From: Sphingobacterium sp. lm-10
GTDB lineage: Bacteria > Bacteroidota > Bacteroidia > Sphingobacteriales > Sphingobacteriaceae
Length of the DNA: 64,000 bases
Assembly (NCBI RefSeq): GCF_023554555.1
Contig: NZ_JAMJWC010000001.1
Span: 1,860,001 to 1,924,000 of the forward strand
Reading direction: 5' to 3'
Below are positions 54,511 to 64,000 of the stretch, piece after piece (positions within the stretch are counted from its first letter, which is position 1; the number at the start of each line of letters is the position of its first letter). The notes beneath the pieces were generated by a model that saw only the letters and a list, made by a program, of their open reading frames with translations, did no database searches and was not told the origin of the DNA. The translations under genes were made by a program, and so were the position numbers.

Positions 54511-54573
54511 GCAGCTATCTACACAGCAATGTAAAGTTTAAATATAATATTGGAATATCGGGAAAGGTCGATA

Positions 54574-54581
54574 TATCTTTG
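54574..54581 (+). promoter_or_regulatory. -7 promoter box abutting the arsR-type start
   Basis: TATCTTTG fits TAnnTTTG and ends 4 bases before the ATG at 54586; ATTG at 54549-54552 is a possible -33 element 21 bases upstream. The transcript would be leaderless or nearly so. Confidence 0.5.
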
Positions 54582-54585
54582 TCAT

Positions 54586-54888
54586 ATGGATCGAGTGAAA
54601 GTATTTAAAGCCCTATCAAATCAAACACGATTAGATATTTTGAATTGGCTTAAAGCACCTGCGGAACATTTTCCACATCAATCAAACGCAGACTTTGAAG
54701 TGGTCGGCGTGTGCGTTGGTCAGATTCAGGCAAAGACAGGTTTATCCCAAAGTACGGTATCCGAGTATCTTTCTATTCTACAACGTGCAGATTTGGTCAT
54801 TGCGTCCCGGGTTGGACAATGGACATATTATAAACGTAATAAAATCGGATTAGAAAATTTAAGCAAAATTGTTAATACGGAATTATAA
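54586..54888 (+). CDS. ArsR-family winged-helix regulator
   Basis: Small dimeric regulator of 100 residues. The start MDRVKVFKALSNQTRLDILNWLK at 54586 is the normal ArsR N-terminus; a TTG-initiated extension to 54550 crosses the promoter and is rejected. The recognition helix lies in IQAKTGLSQSTVSEYLSILQRADLV. The insert ADFEVVGVCVGQIQ holds one cysteine, but no metal-binding CxC of classical ArsR is present, so it may sense a small molecule or redox state. It is 13 bases upstream of the Old Yellow Enzyme gene and very likely controls it. Confidence 0.9.
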   Translation: MDRVKVFKALSNQTRLDILNWLKAPAEHFPHQSNADFEVVGVCVGQIQAKTGLSQSTVSEYLSILQRADLVIASRVGQWTYYKRNKIGLENLSKIVNTEL

Positions 54889-54901
54889 AAAATAGCGTAA
54901 T

Positions 54902-56002
54902 ATGAATACAGATAGTTTATTTAAACCGTTCAAATTAAAATCTTTGAACATAAAAAATAGAATCGTGATGGCACCCATGACCAGATCGTTTTCTCCAAAT
55001 GGCATACCTACGGATGATGTTGCTGCATATTATGCGAGGAGAGCCGCTGCCGAAGTAGGCTTAATCTTATCTGAAGGAACGGTAATAAATCGTCCTTCTT
55101 CATCTGCTGATCCGAATATTCCACATTTTTATGGTGATCAGGCATTAGCAGGATGGCAGAAAGTAATCAACGACGTGCATGCTTCGGGAGGACAAATGGG
55201 GCCCCAAATCTGGCATCAGGGCGTGATGGAAAATCACGCATCAGGATGGCTGCCATCTACACCTTTCGAAGGACCTTCTAGTTTACAAAGACCCGGCTTT
55301 GAGAATGGCGTTCCTATGAGCGACGCTGCAATTGCCGACACCATCTCCGCATTCGGACAAGCAGCGGCCGATGCAAAAGCGTTAGGTTTCGACACGGTAG
55401 AGATCCATGGTGCACACCAGTATCTGATAGATCAGTTTTTCTGGGATGGTACTAATACCCGTACGGATATTTATGGAGGTAAAACCCTGGCGGAACGCTC
55501 ACGTTTTGCAGTCGAGGTCATCAAAGAAGTACGAAAACGTGTTGGCGAAGATTTTACGGTAATCATTCGTTTGTCGCAGTTCAAACCTTCTGACTACAAC
55601 TTTAAATTGGCTAAAAACGAAAAAGAAATGGAACAGTGGTTAACACCATTGTCAAGTGCCGGAATTGATATTTTCCATTGTTCACAACGTCGTTTTTGGG
55701 AGTCTGAATTTGAAGGTTCTGATTTGAATTTTGCAGGTTGGGCTAAAAAAATTACAGGTAAAGCCACTATTTCTGTTGGCTCTGTCGGTTTAGACGGTGA
55801 CTTTTTTGGTGCTTTTGCCGGACAGAGTTCGCAACCTAGTTCTTTAGATGAATTGGTTCGCAGAATGGATCGTGGTGATTTTGATTTAATTGCTGTTGGC
55901 CGCCCATTGTTAGCAGATCCAAATTGGGTTGAAAAAATTAAAAATAATCGTACGGACAAACTGAAAGGATTCACTAAAGACGCCTTTGCAACATTAGCAT
56001 AA
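54902..56002 (+). CDS. Old Yellow Enzyme-family alkene reductase
   Basis: FMN-dependent NAD(P)H oxidoreductase that reduces activated C=C bonds or nitro compounds, 366 residues, TIM barrel. The FMN-binding start is KNRIVMAPMTRSF, the active-site pair is seen in VEIHGAHQYLIDQFFWDGTN (a His-His pair), followed by RTDIYGG, and ISVGSVGLDGDF and DLIAVGRPLLADPNW near the C-terminus. This is the NemA/YqjM-like bacterial group. It is co-transcribed with the ArsR-type regulator, the common arrangement for inducible detoxification of reactive electrophiles. The natural substrate is unknown. Confidence 0.94.
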   Translation: MNTDSLFKPFKLKSLNIKNRIVMAPMTRSFSPNGIPTDDVAAYYARRAAAEVGLILSEGTVINRPSSSADPNIPHFYGDQALAGWQKVINDVHASGGQMGPQIWHQGVMENHASGWLPSTPFEGPSSLQRPGFENGVPMSDAAIADTISAFGQAAADAKALGFDTVEIHGAHQYLIDQFFWDGTNTRTDIYGGKTLAERSRFAVEVIKEVRKRVGEDFTVIIRLSQFKPSDYNFKLAKNEKEMEQWLTPLSSAGIDIFHCSQRRFWESEFEGSDLNFAGWAKKITGKATISVGSVGLDGDFFGAFAGQSSQPSSLDELVRRMDRGDFDLIAVGRPLLADPNWVEKIKNNRTDKLKGFTKDAFATLA

Positions 56003-56167: not shown

Positions 56168-58765
56168 TTAATCACTATCCTTTAACGACCAATCGTTATC
56201 GAAAAAACCCACATTAATCAATCCCGACGCGCCATTAGTTAACATATCGACAGAGAAAAACATGTAATCAGGGAATCCGCTGGCGCCGGCAAAGTATTGA
56301 TTTGCTGTGGCCGCTTTCATACCTTGTATACCGGTTCCAGTAATCACACCTACCGAATGAATATCGCTTCCTGACCTTGGCCATACAAAATAACCACCCA
56401 GATCGTTGGCTGTGTGCACCTTCTCTCCCATCTTCAATTCTCCGGTTCTAACTTGAATAGGACAATCAGCCAGCAAAGAGTTCCAGGCACTGTTTGTTTT
56501 AGCATTTCCGATCAGGATAATATTACGATCTGCATAGTCTTTCAGATCAAAATCCTTATCCGACACGATATCAAAAGCACCATTTCCCCGATAATACCAA
56601 GACTCCGCATCATAGCGTGCCTTTTCCCAAGCCCAAGCATTCTCTTCTGCGGTGCCCTTCGTGCCATAAACGTAAACCATAGTATGTTGAAAAGCATCTT
56701 TAAAGGTACCATTCCGATTTGGGCCTTTTTCCCTTAAGCTTGGCGCATCGGCGATTTGCCATGCTTCTGCTTGCTTTTTAAGATAGATAGTGCCATCTTG
56801 TTGCTTCGACAAAGGTACCTCTAATGCATCCAAACTATCCAAATGCAAGACCAACACCCCTTCTCGACCAAAACCCGAGATATCCAATTTCAACAATGCC
56901 ACGTTATCCGTACGTCCGGTAATTTGCTTGCCTTCGAGATCACGCCACAATTGGATGTGAGAATATGCCAAAGCCTTTTGCTGCTGGTGGATTGCTGCCC
57001 AATAATAGCTGGCCGAAATGCCTGGGTTAGATGTCTTGAAATCTATTTCCTGCACCTCATCCGCAGATTTACGCTTGTGCCATTTGAAATAATCAAAAAG
57101 CGGCTTCCAGTCTACGCTTTCGTTGCTATACCAATGCGATCCCCCCGGGTACTCGTAGTAATTGAAATCCGGATGAAAACCACCTAATATGTCACGCATC
57201 TGACGGGCATAATGAACCGGTACAGTACGATCTGCATCTCCATGCAGCACGTATACGCCTAATGGTTTGTAATTCGTTGCGTAAGCGACTACATCACTTT
57301 GGTTACTGGATCTCAACAAGGTGTTTTCCATCACATTTCTGCCCTGATCGGGAATTATGCCATCTGCCGATCCATATCCTTTCAAGGTTGGGTAACCAGC
57401 ACAGGGTGCTATGGCCGCCCATTTGTCAGGGTATGTAGCGCCCAGAAACCAAGTACCGTGTCCACCCATCGAGTGACCGGTCAGATAAACTCGTGCCGGA
57501 TCATGTTGTATTGTTTTTTGTGCTAAACCCAACACTTCCAATGCGTCCAGTCGACCCCAGTCTTCCCAATTAAAGCCTCTTGGTCTGCGATTGGTTGGAG
57601 CTACCAGCGTCCCCCATTCTTTAGATTCATAGGCCTGTGCCTGGCCGAGTGCTTCTACGCCAGCTCCATGCACAGAGAAAAATAAAGCTTTCTCCTGGGC
57701 ATCGCCACCCTTCGCTGGATTCACTGCGTAATACTGCAAACTGCCATCAATGCTACTGATAAAAGTCTGTCGATAGGACTGATTTTTCTCTACGGATCGT
57801 AACTGTAGCATTTGCTCATCCTGCACTTTCCCAGCTTGCACTAAGGCAATAGATACTGGGATGTCTCCTAGTTCGTTCACGGCAGACGCATCAATCGTTG
57901 CAAGTACTTTTCTAGCACTATGCGCCGCAATAGCAGGGATCTCTTGTTCAGAAATCTTCTCGCCTACGGTAGTTCTAATGATCGTTTTCGTTGTTGGCCT
58001 TCCCGAGGAATTGACCACGTTCACTCCGATTTTCAACGCCGAATTATACTGCCCTTTTACGATATCTGCTAGCGTAACATCTTCCATAGCCAGCGATAGT
58101 GGCTTTTCTGGGAAAGACAACTCTGCCGCTACCAATACGCCCCGCACATAGAATTCATTCTTTCCTTTCTTAAGACGTACCGGGATATGCAACCAACCCA
58201 TGCGGTAAGGGTCACCGGCGTGTAATTCTCCGTTGACCAACACGGCACTATTGCCTTTAATATTGAGCACCGCGTCCTGACTTTTCAAGGCATCATATGT
58301 CAGGTACAAATACCCCGAACCAAAGCCACGACGTTGTGGTGGCGGCGTTGTCGAACTAGCATTGGTCATTCTGGCAGTTTGTTGGTCGATACGTCCTGGG
58401 CCGGGCGGATTGTTTGGGTTGTTGAGATTGCCTCCGGCATTTCGTTGTGGACGAAAGAAGCCTGACGTGTCTGCCGAGATCTTCATCCAAGAATTGCCTT
58501 CTTCGGCAGATTTGCTCCAAGCCTGTCCTTCTGCCGGGCTACTAAAACCTTGTTGATAAAACTGTCCTAACAAAGGGTCGGCATATACCGCTTCACGTCC
58601 ATAATTAAATGGAACCTGGAGTAAAAGTCCTTCGGTAAAGATGTGTTTTTCCTGTGCTTGAACGGAAAGAGCCAGACCGACAGCACAGATCCATGTCAGG
58701 GTGGGCTTAAAGATGGCTAAGTCCCAAATGCGTGTTGTATTCATAGATAGTTTATGGTTAATCAT
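56168..58765 (-). CDS. large exported alpha/beta serine hydrolase (prolyl oligopeptidase-like)
   Basis: An 865-residue exported enzyme. An N-terminal hydrophobic signal precedes AVGLALSVQAQ; start at 58765 overlaps the previous stop as TAATG, while the ATG at 58744 is also possible. About residues 40-330 are beta-rich with a Pro/Gly/Asn-rich insert. The catalytic alpha/beta-hydrolase domain follows with the nucleophile elbow LTGHSMGGHGTWFLG near residue 430 and a likely catalytic His in YPGGSHWYSNESVDW. About 600-865 is a separate domain of unknown fold. The layout fits S9-like peptidases or polysaccharide esterases of Bacteroidota. It is the last gene of the redoxin-cytochrome/monooxygenase operon. 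Confidence 0.88.
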   Translation of the reverse strand: MINHKLSMNTTRIWDLAIFKPTLTWICAVGLALSVQAQEKHIFTEGLLLQVPFNYGREAVYADPLLGQFYQQGFSSPAEGQAWSKSAEEGNSWMKISADTSGFFRPQRNAGGNLNNPNNPPGPGRIDQQTARMTNASSTTPPPQRRGFGSGYLYLTYDALKSQDAVLNIKGNSAVLVNGELHAGDPYRMGWLHIPVRLKKGKNEFYVRGVLVAAELSFPEKPLSLAMEDVTLADIVKGQYNSALKIGVNVVNSSGRPTTKTIIRTTVGEKISEQEIPAIAAHSARKVLATIDASAVNELGDIPVSIALVQAGKVQDEQMLQLRSVEKNQSYRQTFISSIDGSLQYYAVNPAKGGDAQEKALFFSVHGAGVEALGQAQAYESKEWGTLVAPTNRRPRGFNWEDWGRLDALEVLGLAQKTIQHDPARVYLTGHSMGGHGTWFLGATYPDKWAAIAPCAGYPTLKGYGSADGIIPDQGRNVMENTLLRSSNQSDVVAYATNYKPLGVYVLHGDADRTVPVHYARQMRDILGGFHPDFNYYEYPGGSHWYSNESVDWKPLFDYFKWHKRKSADEVQEIDFKTSNPGISASYYWAAIHQQQKALAYSHIQLWRDLEGKQITGRTDNVALLKLDISGFGREGVLVLHLDSLDALEVPLSKQQDGTIYLKKQAEAWQIADAPSLREKGPNRNGTFKDAFQHTMVYVYGTKGTAEENAWAWEKARYDAESWYYRGNGAFDIVSDKDFDLKDYADRNIILIGNAKTNSAWNSLLADCPIQVRTGELKMGEKVHTANDLGGYFVWPRSGSDIHSVGVITGTGIQGMKAATANQYFAGASGFPDYMFFSVDMLTNGASGLINVGFFDNDWSLKDSD

Positions 58766-60096
58766 TACGGTAAGTGCCGCAATGAAGTGAGTTGCTTTTC
58801 GTCGTTCGGCTGATAGGGTAAATAAATCATTAAAAGGGTCATCATTTCCTGATCGGACTTCATATTTGAATAAGAGAATATATTTTGTGGCGGTACAAAT
58901 GGATTGAATGGATTGTTCGCCGTGTTATCGTAGGCACATTCCATGTGAATAACTGCTCCTTTTGGAATTTTCTTAAAATGCTTGTAGCGATACATTTCTT
59001 GCCATCGATAGTCCCAATCAGGGATATTGACAAGCGGGATAGTATCGTTATTTTCTAGCGTAGCATAGACCTTAAATGATTTGCCGATGTAATGCATGTG
59101 TGGCCAGATATATAAGAGTGACAGATCTTCCCCTGGATTTTTAAATTTCAGAGTGTAATGACTTACCTTATCTGCCGGAATCATAAAAAATGACGGCTGT
59201 ATATCAAGTTCCCCAATACCACCAGATCCAAAGCTGACTACCTTTACTTCTCGTTCGACTGGAACATCTGTAAAAAATAAATGAACGCCATTTACCGAAA
59301 ATTCATCGATCGGTGTAGCGGAAAAATGTACCGTGAGCAGAATCACGCCACGTTTTGGCATTTTCCAACCTACCTTTGGAGGATAAGCCTCCGCGGCCGC
59401 GCCTGGAATCCATCCTCCATAGTACGCCATTTTTTGCTTAAATCTTTTATAAGGATCAGTATATCTCACCTCACCATCGGTGTGGTTTGCCATAGCGGGT
59501 GCAGCATTAATATCTACCGTAAGATCTTCAATAACCTGTACCGCATAGTTAACATGGTGAATTAGTTTTTTATTATTGGAATAGAATTCTATCGCTTCCA
59601 CATCAAATGATTGGTCTAATTCAAATGGGATTTTAAATTCTACAAATCGTTCGCGGTTATTGCCCTTTACTAAAAAGGTATCCGCAGTGACCAATGTCAT
59701 ATCGGCGGCACGACCATAGTCGGTTGATCGATTTATTGCTTGATTTTTTTCACGCCCTTTTCTTTTTCCTTCTTTTACACCAGCATCTACCCAAGATACA
59801 ATCGTCTGAATATCTTTTTCTGAAAGTGTACGATCATTATCAAAATGCACGTAATCATTATCTGCCCGCCAAGGTGGCATGTATCTAGACTGAACGACTT
59901 CTTTAATGAATGAGGCACGTTTAGCGACGTCCTCATACGTCAACAAATTAAAGGGTGCGGCTTCCCCATCGCGATGGCATCCTGCACATTTGCTTTGTAT
60001 AATAGGCGCTACATCCTGCACATAAGTTTGTGCAGACACCGCACTATGTCCTAATAGTGCAAGCAACCAACAAATAAGGATAGGGAGTCGTATCAT
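58765..60096 (-). CDS. exported fusion of c-type cytochrome and PHM-like dicopper monooxygenase
   Basis: A 443-residue exported protein (signal peptide ending SAVSAQ). Residues 24-105 are a cytochrome c domain with the single haem motif CAGCH (Cys37, Cys40, His41) and the distal-Met region RYMPPW. Residues about 130-440 match the copper type II ascorbate-dependent monooxygenase fold: His180-His181 (LIHHVNYAV), His257 (LTVHFSAT), His333 and His335 (WPHMHYIG) and Met418 or Met419 (SDQEMMTL) line up with the CuH and CuM ligands of peptidylglycine monooxygenase. So a hydroxylase fed by haem is suggested. Start codon and stop are coupled to the neighbours by 2-base and overlapping junctions. Confidence 0.88.
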   Translation of the reverse strand: MIRLPILICWLLALLGHSAVSAQTYVQDVAPIIQSKCAGCHRDGEAAPFNLLTYEDVAKRASFIKEVVQSRYMPPWRADNDYVHFDNDRTLSEKDIQTIVSWVDAGVKEGKRKGREKNQAINRSTDYGRAADMTLVTADTFLVKGNNRERFVEFKIPFELDQSFDVEAIEFYSNNKKLIHHVNYAVQVIEDLTVDINAAPAMANHTDGEVRYTDPYKRFKQKMAYYGGWIPGAAAEAYPPKVGWKMPKRGVILLTVHFSATPIDEFSVNGVHLFFTDVPVEREVKVVSFGSGGIGELDIQPSFFMIPADKVSHYTLKFKNPGEDLSLLYIWPHMHYIGKSFKVYATLENNDTIPLVNIPDWDYRWQEMYRYKHFKKIPKGAVIHMECAYDNTANNPFNPFVPPQNIFSYSNMKSDQEMMTLLMIYLPYQPNDEKQLTSLRHLP

Positions 60097-60098
60097 AA

Positions 60099-60680
60099 TT
60101 ATCGCGTATGTATATAGCAGCCTTTCGCTTCGGTTTTAGTGATCAGAATCGGGCGACCATGCAGTACACTTTCTACCGCATCCTGTAGATAAAATTGTGT
60201 CACCACTACTCGCTTCTTCCCTAGCTCGGGCACAGCATTGTCAATGGCACCAATATACTGCAGTACGCCTTTAGTATACAATGCAGCTGAGGGAGTTACC
60301 GATGCTCCAACTTCTTGAGTTAGTTTAAAATCTGGATCTAGATACATCGGTATCCCTAGTTTGTATTTATCAGCAAATTGTTTGATATCATCACTTCGAT
60401 GCGACTTGCCAGAAAATATCCCCATAAATTTTACCTCTGAACCAAATTGGCGCTGCAGTTGATTGATCGTCTGTGTATAACCTTGACATAGCGGACATTC
60501 TGGAGACAGAAAGAGCAACACCATCGGTTCGTCTGTCTGAATCGTGTATCCTTGGTTGGTATTTATATCCAACAATTGATGTTGATGCAAATTATTTTTC
60601 TGAGCGTAACTGGTACCGCAGAAAAATAATGAAAAACAAACAGCTAGTAACAAGTAATATAAAAATCTATGCATCGTCAT
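60099..60680 (-). CDS. exported thioredoxin-fold protein (redoxin/AhpC-TSA type)
   Basis: A 193-residue exported thiol-redox protein. The frame extends to 60791, but through a terminator and into the upstream gene; the ATG at 60680 (or 60674) directly precedes a signal peptide (HRFLYYLLLAVCFSLFF). The thioredoxin-like domain has the active site SPECPLCQ (Cys62, Cys65 counted from 60680) and the cis-Pro region GASVTPSAALY. Its partner is probably the copper/haem protein encoded 2 bases downstream, where it could keep cysteines or copper in the reduced state, as Sco-like proteins do; this is inference. First gene of a three-gene operon. Confidence 0.88.
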   Translation of the reverse strand: MTMHRFLYYLLLAVCFSLFFCGTSYAQKNNLHQHQLLDINTNQGYTIQTDEPMVLLFLSPECPLCQGYTQTINQLQRQFGSEVKFMGIFSGKSHRSDDIKQFADKYKLGIPMYLDPDFKLTQEVGASVTPSAALYTKGVLQYIGAIDNAVPELGKKRVVVTQFYLQDAVESVLHGRPILITKTEAKGCYIHTR

Positions 60681-60719: not shown

Positions 60720-60749
60720 AATAGCACCGATAAGTATATCGGTGCTATT
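60720..60749 (-). terminator. terminator of the SusC/SusD pair 5 operon
   Basis: AATAGCACCGATA pairs perfectly with TATCGGTGCTATT around AGTA, 13 bases after the SusD stop. The minus-strand tail reads TATTTTACC, T-rich. It separates SusD from the redoxin operon. Confidence 0.75.
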
Positions 60750-60762
60750 GCTAGTAGTTAAT

Positions 60763-62457
60763 TTATTGTTTATCCCACCAGATTCTTCCAAGAATATTGG
60801 ATGGCTCTCCGAAATCTGGATCGCGCATCATCTCGTCCAATGCGGCTTTCTTATTATCAAAATTATACTCTCCTGTTACCGGAAAGCCGATATTGAAACG
60901 ACGTGGCATTTGCGAAACGCTACCCGTATTGGTCCAATCTTCGAATACCAATGCCGTAGTCTTATTTGGCATTCCAGTCCGTTTCACTAAAGCCCATGCC
61001 TCGTTGAAGTTACGATAATAATTCAAATAGGATTGCAGAACAATTTGCTCCAAGCCCGTTGCTGCATTATAAGCTATACCCGGTTTAGTCTTAAAGGCAT
61101 TGATTTCTGCATCTGTCAAGGGTACATAATCCACAATGTGTGTCGATTCAGCCAGCTTATCGTAAAAGCGAAGTGATGCTTCGACACCTTTAGTATACCA
61201 TTCCCCAGCATTCTCATTAGACCATCCTCGTTGTGCGATTTCTGCTCTGATAAAGCAAAGGTCCGCATAGGTAAGTACTGGAAAGATACCAACACCCGTT
61301 CCACCATCATTTTCTGGTTGAAATAGGCGGTCCTGTATACGCGAAACGGTATCTAGCGTAATGGTATTTTCGCCATCACGGATCTGCAGTGGTGCAAAGA
61401 AACGTGCTTTCGTTGGATCTTCTGCTGCTTCTGGATTGGAGAATTGTCCGTAATACCTTCTTGGGTTGAATACCGCTGTCGCTGGAATAACACCCTGATC
61501 TTTTGCACGTTGAAAATTCAACTCACTCCACTGGTTTGGCCGGAAGAAGAAACGCAATCTTGGATCCTCATTATTCCACATATAATCCACTACACCCGAC
61601 TCGCCCACGAAAAGACGACCATTACCTGTAATGTTCCAGTTTCCGCCTTGAGTAAAGTTGATTCGAGCTTTCAAACTCCAGTCTTCCTCACTACTTGAGA
61701 TCAATCCGGCAGGGTGGCTCAACACATCCTGCACAATAGCTTGTAATCTTGCAGGATCACGCTTCATGAGGCGCAAAGCGATCATCAATCGCAATGAATT
61801 GGCCGCTTTTGCCCATTTGGCAGCATCCCCTCCAAAATAAAGATCCTGATTGCCGTAGCTGAATTGTTCTACAGGTTGTGGCGTGCTCAATATGGTTGCC
61901 GCTTCTTTCAGCTCACGGTCAAAAATGGTAAAAAGCTCATCTTGAGTTTCGTACTTAGGCCGTAAGGTACCGCCATAGCGCGATTGGAACGCTTCTGTAT
62001 ATGGAATACTACCGTTCACGTCAGACACATACCATGCTTGCCATGCTTTTACTACGCTAGGAATTGCTCTTTTATACGTATTTCTTGCTCTTTCGTCGTC
62101 CGGCATACGATCGATCATCCGTTGTACGTCTTCTAATAATGGACCTACATCTTCAAAAAACTTACCGTAGCGATTGTTCGCGTTGGCGGCATTGTCCGTC
62201 ACGCCCAGACTATTTCCAGTAACCTGTAAAAAGACCCGTGACCATCTGCTGACGTAGCTATAATTATCATAAAAGGCCTCCATATCATTATCTTGACTCA
62301 TGATGACGGCCTGGGTAAACAAATAATCTACCGGCGGATTTAGCACCGCATCGGGATCTGTATTGTACTCTGCAAACTTGTCGCGGCTGCACCCCATAAT
62401 GGTTGCTTGAGCCACCAGCGCAAATGTAAAGTACTTGAATATTTTTAATGTTGTCAT
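60763..62457 (-). CDS. SusD-like lipoprotein, SusD-like_2 type (pair 5)
   Basis: Surface lipoprotein, 564 residues. The lipobox is IMGC (Cys about 23), then SRDKFAEYNTDPDAV, the SusD-like_2 hallmark. Further family blocks are VVKAWQAWYVSDVNGSIPY, AKWAKAANSLRLMIALRLMK and the terminal GRIWWDKQ. It lies 10 bases after its SusC. The 81 bases after its stop hold the terminator that separates it from the redoxin operon, so the two units have different transcripts but may share a physiological role. Confidence 0.94.
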   Translation of the reverse strand: MTTLKIFKYFTFALVAQATIMGCSRDKFAEYNTDPDAVLNPPVDYLFTQAVIMSQDNDMEAFYDNYSYVSRWSRVFLQVTGNSLGVTDNAANANNRYGKFFEDVGPLLEDVQRMIDRMPDDERARNTYKRAIPSVVKAWQAWYVSDVNGSIPYTEAFQSRYGGTLRPKYETQDELFTIFDRELKEAATILSTPQPVEQFSYGNQDLYFGGDAAKWAKAANSLRLMIALRLMKRDPARLQAIVQDVLSHPAGLISSSEEDWSLKARINFTQGGNWNITGNGRLFVGESGVVDYMWNNEDPRLRFFFRPNQWSELNFQRAKDQGVIPATAVFNPRRYYGQFSNPEAAEDPTKARFFAPLQIRDGENTITLDTVSRIQDRLFQPENDGGTGVGIFPVLTYADLCFIRAEIAQRGWSNENAGEWYTKGVEASLRFYDKLAESTHIVDYVPLTDAEINAFKTKPGIAYNAATGLEQIVLQSYLNYYRNFNEAWALVKRTGMPNKTTALVFEDWTNTGSVSQMPRRFNIGFPVTGEYNFDNKKAALDEMMRDPDFGEPSNILGRIWWDKQ

Positions 62458-62467
62458 AACGCTGTTA

Positions 62468-64000
62468 TTAAAAATTGGTGTTGATAGTGAAATTGAAATT
62501 TCTCATTAACGGCGAACCACCACCTAACATAGATGCTGCCGCAGAGGTAGATCTCAAATCTTCTGGATTCAAATTATCAGGCAATGAATTGTATAGGAAG
62601 CCTAAGTTGCGACCATTGACAGTCAATCTCAAATTGTTCAGTTTAAGCCTGTTTGCTACAGTTTGTGGCAAATCGTAGCTTACAGATACATCACGCACCA
62701 TAATCCATGATGATTCAAATGCCGAACGCTCCCGAATACCAGTACCCCACCCGTAAGACGAATTATAAAAGTTCACATCACTGACAGGCACTGTTACACC
62801 TTTATCGACAGTCTCCTGATACGTTAAGCCGCCTACATCTTGACCTCCGATACGCGTACCTTGTGCAAAAACACCGTCAGGAATGATACCCCAAGCTTGA
62901 TTTCCGGCTGCATTCGTAAATTCTACACTACCTTCAGTTCCCGGTCTACCATACAGCGAACTTGCGATTTGACCAGTCTGCATACCGTAGTTGTAAGTTG
63001 GAGAGTATACATAACCGCCGAATTTAGCATCTAGCATAAAACTAAACGAAAATGACTTGTAGTTGAATCGATTGATAATACTTCCCATAAAGCTTGGCAA
63101 GACCGAACCAATAACCTTTTCGCGTTCTAATCCTGATGCATAATCTTGTGAGCGGACAAACCTTCCGGTATTAGTTCCTAACAGTGTCATCACATTTTTA
63201 CCATTATTCACATGATCAATCGGATTGCCACTAGCGTCACGTGCTTGGAAAAGCGCGTGACCATAATTAGACACCATCGTCCCATACGATCCGCCTACTT
63301 TAGCAATGGTACGGATACCATCATCCGACTCTAACTCGTGAACATCTACGCCAGGAGCCAATGCTAATATCTTATCGCGGTTACGTGTGAAGTTGAAGAA
63401 AGTATCCCAAGAGAAATCACCTATTTTTACTGGCGTGCCGTGTAATCCAAGCTCCACCCCGTAGTTACGAATGTGTCCGCTATTGATCAACGCTCTTGTT
63501 ACACCACTTTCGCGAGATACAGGTAGGTCAATGATCTGGTCACGTGTATCGCGACTATAATAGGTGGCATTAATACCAAAGCGGTTGTTAAACATTTTCA
63601 CTTCTGTTCCCACTTCCCAAGTGCTACTCCGTTCTGGGCGAAGATCACTATTTCCTAATCGCTTGGAGTCAAAGTTATACACAGAGATACCCGCCGTATA
63701 AGGATCGCGAGGCGTGTAGAAGCCTGTCATCGCGTTGTATACATTAGTTCCTTTACCCACCTGATTGAAGGATGCACGCAATTTACCAAATGATAGAATA
63801 TCTCCGGTAAGGCCTAACATATCCGAAAATACCCAAGCCGCATCCGTTCCGTAGTAGAAGTAGGAATAGTTACCAGTTCCATCTGGATACACCAAGCTAG
63901 AATCCCAATCATTACGTCCGTATAAGTTGAGCGTTAATCCATTTTTGTAATCGACCGCTGTCTGAAAAATAGCCGACACTGTACGCTGCTGATTAGGTTT
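62468..64000 (-). CDS. SusC TonB-linked transporter, C-terminal part (cut by window edge, pair 5)
   Basis: The frame is open through base 64000, so the N-terminal domains and plug are outside the window; an in-frame GTG at 63979 is not a start. The visible ~510 residues are beta-barrel strands of the SusC family: TLNLYGRNDWDSSLVYPDG, KLRASFNQVGKGTNVYNAM, RPERSSTWEVGTEVKMFNNR, and the terminal RNFNFTINTNF. It is followed by its SusD after 10 bases. Confidence 0.93.
   Translation of the reverse strand, partial: KPNQQRTVSAIFQTAVDYKNGLTLNLYGRNDWDSSLVYPDGTGNYSYFYYGTDAAWVFSDMLGLTGDILSFGKLRASFNQVGKGTNVYNAMTGFYTPRDPYTAGISVYNFDSKRLGNSDLRPERSSTWEVGTEVKMFNNRFGINATYYSRDTRDQIIDLPVSRESGVTRALINSGHIRNYGVELGLHGTPVKIGDFSWDTFFNFTRNRDKILALAPGVDVHELESDDGIRTIAKVGGSYGTMVSNYGHALFQARDASGNPIDHVNNGKNVMTLLGTNTGRFVRSQDYASGLEREKVIGSVLPSFMGSIINRFNYKSFSFSFMLDAKFGGYVYSPTYNYGMQTGQIASSLYGRPGTEGSVEFTNAAGNQAWGIIPDGVFAQGTRIGGQDVGGLTYQETVDKGVTVPVSDVNFYNSSYGWGTGIRERSAFESSWIMVRDVSVSYDLPQTVANRLKLNNLRLTVNGRNLGFLYNSLPDNLNPEDLRSTSAAASMLGGGSPLMRNFNFTINTNF

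Follow-up and report, generated by a model that had tools for sequence, protein, structure and literature searches.

Gene organization of the locus

The locus lies in a stretch of 64,000 nucleotides (the window) from the 3.8 Mb genome of Sphingobacterium sp. lm-10, a soil-type member of Bacteroidota whose nearest named relatives are S. chungjuense and Sphingobacterium sp. CFCC 11742. Three consecutive genes code for a redoxin, for a protein joining a c-type haem domain to a predicted dicopper fold, like that of the PHM domain of peptidylglycine alpha-amidating monooxygenase and of dopamine beta-hydroxylase (DBH), which we have named Cyt-PHM, and for a large hydrolase (Table 1). Their tight packing had been pointed out in the original prediction and was found as described, with a gap of 2 bases (60097-60098) between the redoxin and Cyt-PHM genes and a TAATG at 58765 shared by the Cyt-PHM stop and the hydrolase start. 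Likewise, the signal peptides attributed to the three proteins agreed with our direct reading of their N-termini, which are all signal-peptide-like. A SusD-like and a SusC-like gene precede the three genes. L024, which extends the reading past the edge of the window, holds the complete SusC, in turn preceded by a gene for a ROK-family regulator. On the other side, an ArsR-type regulator and an OYE-family flavoprotein are encoded at 54550-56002, between a convergent second SusC/SusD pair and the hydrolase; both are missing in L003, a locus otherwise similar to that of the window.

Table 1. Features of the Cyt-PHM locus (positions in the window)
Feature	Position	Strand	Description
Redoxin gene	60099..60680	-	Secreted, ResA/TlpA-like thioredoxin fold; CPLC motif and C-terminal GC motif; Pfam AhpC-TSA, E 1e-7
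Cyt-PHM gene (443 aa)	58765..60096	-	c-type haem domain (residues ~25-110) and PHM/DBH-type dicopper fold (~128-430)
Hydrolase gene (865 aa)	56168..58765	-	Secreted alpha/beta hydrolase of large size with a GHSMG serine; the central domain resembles CE1 feruloyl/PHB-depolymerase esterases
SusD-like lipoprotein gene (PF12771)	60763..62457	-	Cognate upstream partner; near Cyt-PHM in 29 loci
SusC/TonB-dependent transporter gene	62468..64000	-	Runs off the window; complete in L024 (1102 aa)
Stem-loop 3' of SusD	60720..60749	-	Probably attenuates within the operon or stabilises the 3' end
Haem c attachment motif CAGCH, residues 37-41	59974..59988	-	C37, C40 and H41 invariant in 32 homologues
Met73 of YMPPW	59878..59880	-	Candidate sixth (axial) haem ligand; invariant in 32
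His180-His181	59554..59559	-	Predicted CuH-site ligands; align with the DBH HH pair; invariant
His257	59326..59328	-	Predicted third CuH-site ligand; aligns with the DBH EVHY histidine; invariant
His333-Met334-His335 (HMH)	59092..59100	-	Predicted CuM-site His ligands; align with DBH HTH; His invariant
Met418	58843..58845	-	Predicted CuM-site Met ligand; invariant; assigned from the EM motif that follows the HxH strand, beyond the part aligned with DBH

The stem-loop that follows SusD had been taken as a terminator isolating the downstream genes. The structure itself is real and terminator-like (MFE of -19.5 kcal/mol, z of -5.2). A comparable hairpin was present in all 29 gaps between SusD and the next gene and in 14 of the 77 other same-strand gaps of the same loci, counts that include near-identical species. 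Since it was found after SusD in every gap tested, the hairpin marks no operon boundary, and an insulating role was ruled out. Its stem sequences differ between genera, and the U tail after SusD is weak. A general element placed after SusD is the better reading, one that perhaps keeps SusC/SusD at higher levels than the enzymes.

The Cyt-PHM model resembles PHM and DBH

Searches with the single Cyt-PHM sequence were little informative. Pfam returned sub-threshold matches to Cytochrome_CBB3, Haem_bd and Cu2_monoox_C, with PF03712 scoring 19.8 bits (Pfam cut-off of 23) and PF01082 giving no match for the window protein, and the PDB search yielded no useful match. Among 32 Cyt-PHM relatives, PF03712 and PF01082 were matched at E<0.01 by 29 and 13 sequences, respectively, and a profile built from the 32-sequence alignment (A3) retrieved DBH by sequence with an E-value of 5e-11. 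We have then compared the AF2 model of Cyt-PHM (pLDDT of 80.6, alignment of 21 sequences) with solved structures. PHM and DBH chains occupied Foldseek ranks 1 to 31, with best E-values of 4.8e-13 for PHM and 1.4e-12 for DBH, and VIA comparison over 257-278 residues gave Z-scores of 21.3 for DBH (4zel), the best match, and 20.1 for PHM. As modelled, the middle protein is a two-domain double jelly roll of the PHM/DBH superfamily, in line with the PHM-like fold that had been anticipated.

PNGase F, which has the same fold, reached a VIA Z-score of only ~7-8. The invariance of all six copper ligands among the Cyt-PHM homologues led us to discard a PNGase F-like glycoamidase role. PHM is described as widespread among eukaryotes, and PNGase F among bacteria (PMC8812541). 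Our literature search, confined to open-access PMC papers, found no description of a bacterial cytochrome-PHM.

Predicted haem and copper ligands are invariant among homologues

The alignment of 32 Cyt-PHM homologues, which reach down to 23% identity, contained 24 invariant columns. These include C37, C40, H41, M73, H180, H181, H257, H333, H335 and M418, that is, all ten predicted metal ligands. The CAGCH haem motif and the full PHM ligand pattern (HH, H, HxH, M) foreseen for the middle protein are present; the invariance of the latter in the 32 homologues is far beyond chance. Met73 was read as the candidate sixth haem ligand on account of its invariance. The invariant CxxCH and Met73, the signal-like N-terminus and a CcsA-type assembly gene in the genome are features expected of a c-type cytochrome. 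From this ligand set, Cyt-PHM would be loaded with both haem and copper.

The fusion of haem and copper domains is the rule in Bacteroidota

In a sample of 395 genomes of the phylum, PF03712 was matched in 35, in 31 of them above the Pfam cut-off. A haem c motif precedes the copper domain in all the full-length loci read except L132, so that the fusion is the rule in the phylum; the L140 locus is interrupted by a contig end. Most proteins have CxxCH; a second subfamily, observed at L113, L118, L119, L124, L125, L131, L133 and L136, has an unusual CX4CH motif such as CATSGCH instead. The one clear exception, at L132 (886-1809), is a lipoprotein-like protein with a PHM domain and no haem domain.

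Cyt-PHM is patchily distributed: among the 19 listed genomes of the sampled genus only that of the window has it, and other Sphingobacterium species from a separate genome collection do have it. A type IX secretion tail was present in about 13 of the 32 relatives and a lipobox-like start in several, pointing to a cell-surface location of the family in those organisms.

The redoxin is a dedicated partner of Cyt-PHM

The redoxin profile (A2) found a single match in its own genome, at the window locus, which makes this protein the only close family member there; in the PDB, the profile matched ResA and other thioredoxin-fold chains. The PHM tree has 50 rows, including some near-duplicates; in 32 of these rows the redoxin adjoins or is fused to Cyt-PHM, and its linkage required 7 changes, versus 15 under shuffling. 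It lies mostly upstream of Cyt-PHM, downstream in L086 and divergently in L085, and is fused to its N-terminus in L022 and L091, two distant relatives in which the redoxin has lost the second active-site Cys. Such variety in how the two parts are arranged argues strongly that they are functionally linked, and supports the redoxin as a dedicated Cyt-PHM partner. Given that it is missing in 5 of the 29 SusD-linked loci, it is not essential everywhere.

One of the roles originally assigned to the redoxin, keeping the thiols of the PHM protein reduced, is improbable as a broad disulfide function because, beyond the signal peptide, the two haem cysteines are the only conserved cysteines in most Cyt-PHM sequences. 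For the same reason, a thiol role of the redoxin would most simply target the haem site. Copper delivery and peroxide removal are possible roles as well.

The hydrolase is an exchangeable accessory

The conserved unit is SusC-SusD-redoxin-Cyt-PHM, present in 24 of the 29 SusD-linked loci. A ROK regulator usually heads it, and SusC, SusD and this regulator are the most constant neighbours of Cyt-PHM. The locus thereby has the hallmark of a polysaccharide utilisation locus (PUL), a SusC/SusD pair with linked enzymes and a regulator; in the window's own cluster the enzymes of this kind are limited to one esterase-like hydrolase, and relatives have GH29 and GH3. Downstream of Cyt-PHM the partners vary. 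Many PHM loci that lack the hydrolase carry FG-GAP/ASPIC and PAP2/vanadium-haloperoxidase-type proteins beside Cyt-PHM, followed by GH29 and GH3. Hence, the constant part is SusC, SusD and Cyt-PHM, and what follows downstream can be exchanged. The FG-GAP/ASPIC and PAP2 pair recurs in L007-L023, L073, L074 and L079-L081.

The original prediction treated the three genes as one conserved unit. This arrangement would fit a single dedicated pathway in which the hydrolase acts directly on the product or the substrate of the monooxygenase, and some of the data point that way: the TAATG overlap in the window, the direct adjacency of the genes in five Sphingobacteriaceae-type loci and the spacing of within ~2 kb in all four genomes of the family sample that have both the hydrolase and a canonical Cyt-PHM. 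However, when the gene neighbourhoods were checked, the hydrolase was directly 3' of Cyt-PHM in only 5 of the 29 SusD-linked loci (the window, L002, L003, L005 and L006), a few genes away in 5 others and absent nearby in the remaining 19. Moreover, 12 of the 16 family-sample genomes with the hydrolase have no canonical Cyt-PHM, and in the phylum sample G300 and G391 each carry the two genes on different contigs, with ~35 kb between them in G190. This distribution ruled out a plain three-gene conserved operon and makes the single-pathway reading improbable. The hydrolase is an exchangeable accessory, commoner in clusters without Cyt-PHM than beside it.

In the genomes of the same genus that lack Cyt-PHM, the hydrolase was found within ROK-SusC-SusD-hydrolase-GH29 clusters, whose SusC is distant from that of the window (~30%) and whose SusD had no match to it at the threshold used. 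Such an association with a different SusC/SusD pair and glycoside hydrolases points to fucosylated glycoconjugates as the material that the hydrolase serves, and to an oxidative module tied to a SusC/SusD pair of its own. GH20, GH35, Asparaginase_2 and CutC are present in some of these clusters as well. In L099 (1286-14206) and L108 (5907-6908), the hydrolase family is accompanied by GH35, GH29, GH20, a glycosylasparaginase-like Asparaginase_2 and CutC, a set that suggests the breakdown of N-glycans or glycoasparagines. An FG-GAP-repeat protein was also observed in clusters of this kind, in L098 (5669-7210, with a CxxCH stretch before the repeats) and as gene 2 of L103; it is possibly another redox component in the slot of Cyt-PHM.

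Regarding the hydrolase itself, its matches to NF050058 (E of 1e-17, 63 bits) and TIGR01840 (E of 1e-14, 52 bits) fell below the curated cut-offs of 150 and 108, respectively, and the closest solved chain was LC-Est1C (3wyd, E of 1.5e-21). It thus bears a family resemblance, and only that, to CE1/PHB-depolymerase-like esterases. The AF2 model obtained from 9 sequences had a pLDDT of 55.6 and its catalytic domain could not be read.

Proposed function of the oxidative module

The core of the system would be a two-gene oxidative module, redoxin and Cyt-PHM, set in a PUL-like locus composed of ROK, SusC, SusD, the module and exchangeable hydrolases. The presence of this module in a nutrient-uptake cluster suggests an oxygen-using step in the digestion of a sugar-containing compound. 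The N-terminal c-type haem would take up electrons one at a time from donors in the periplasm or at the surface and pass them to both copper sites. With O2, the PHM/DBH-type fold would then hydroxylate a C-H bond in the compound that the SusC/SusD pair handles. The redoxin would most likely ready or guard Cyt-PHM by keeping the CxxC thiols of the haem site reduced for haem attachment, in a ResA-like manner, or alternatively would handle copper or peroxide. The hydrolase and, in relatives, the fucosidase, GH3 and further esterases may strip acyl and sugar groups off the same compound, which, considering the GH29, GH3 and ROK genes of the PHM loci, is probably a fucosylated and acylated glycoconjugate. 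A haem-fed copper monooxygenase is our best reading of Cyt-PHM, and a reasonably likely one.

Electrons could also flow the opposite way, with the copper centre oxidising the substrate and the haem draining electrons, so that Cyt-PHM would be a surface oxidase or dehydrogenase feeding respiration. A c-type haem domain can work in either direction, similar cytochrome domains are electron acceptors in bacterial dehydrogenases, and the L098 cluster has its CxxCH-bearing FG-GAP protein where Cyt-PHM would be. Yet Cyt-PHM keeps the exact six-ligand PHM set, including the His-His-Met of CuM, which PHM and DBH use with O2 and an external reductant, and we therefore regard the reverse flow as rather unlikely.

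The monooxygenase that we favour is like the PHM domain of peptidylglycine alpha-amidating monooxygenase (1phm, 3mll) in its two-domain double jelly roll and HH/H/HxH/M ligands. It differs in its low identity (~14%), in lacking the conserved disulfide cysteines and the PAL domain, and in having an N-terminal haem c domain as presumed electron donor where PHM uses free ascorbate. This kinship, and the match of the window SusD to the Pfam SusD/RagB model PF12741 as well, would suit a PAM-like enzyme amidating peptides imported by a RagB-like SusC/SusD pair. Nevertheless, at the positions of the peptide-carboxylate anchors of PHM, which we take to be Arg240, Asn316 and Tyr318, Cyt-PHM has W331, T420 and L422, so that the anchors are apparently not retained, and both the sugar- and ester-directed neighbour enzymes and the ROK regulator argue against a peptide substrate. 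Among the genes beside Cyt-PHM, as read, none was recognised as coding for an amidating lyase. Peptide amidation is thus very improbable.

Relation of the Cyt-PHM system to known systems

PHM and DBH have been studied as animal enzymes, in which electrons come from ascorbate and pass between two distant coppers. DBH, a eukaryotic secretory-granule enzyme, has a DOMON domain at the N-terminus, whereas that of Cyt-PHM is a c-type cytochrome. In the cellobiose dehydrogenase/LPMO system, a secreted copper monooxygenase that aids polysaccharide enzymes receives its electrons from a haem domain. The folds are unrelated to those of Cyt-PHM, however, and the haem there is of b-type and placed on a separate flavoenzyme, in contrast with the c-type haem and dicopper fold combined in one chain. 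The redoxin shares fold and CPxC motif with the ResA/TlpA thiol-disulfide oxidoreductases, of which ResA reduces apocytochrome CxxCH, but it is genetically dedicated to Cyt-PHM and has an extra conserved C-terminal GC motif. As in other Bacteroidota PULs, ROK, SusC and SusD are followed by secreted enzymes, with GH29 and GH3 in relatives; here, the most constant enzyme is a putative oxygenase and not a glycoside hydrolase.

Most of what is known about the copper oxygenase fold of Cyt-PHM comes from enzymes of animal hormones and neurotransmitters. If the proposed function is correct, a bacterial form with covalent haem in the same chain would offer a tractable and optically readable system for the question of electron transfer between distant coppers, and a dicopper oxygenase would join the oxidative tools of polysaccharide-type uptake loci, of which LPMOs are the usual example. 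More tentatively, haem-powered, ascorbate-independent monooxygenases of the PHM type may operate phylum-wide in glycoconjugate-uptake loci of Bacteroidota, each with a redoxin dedicated to its maturation or protection. Spread by plasmids was considered and set aside, as PLSDB gave no match. Locus L019, on a contig labelled Beijerinckiaceae, has SusC, SusD and Cyt-PHM and probably is a misbinned Bacteroidota contig.
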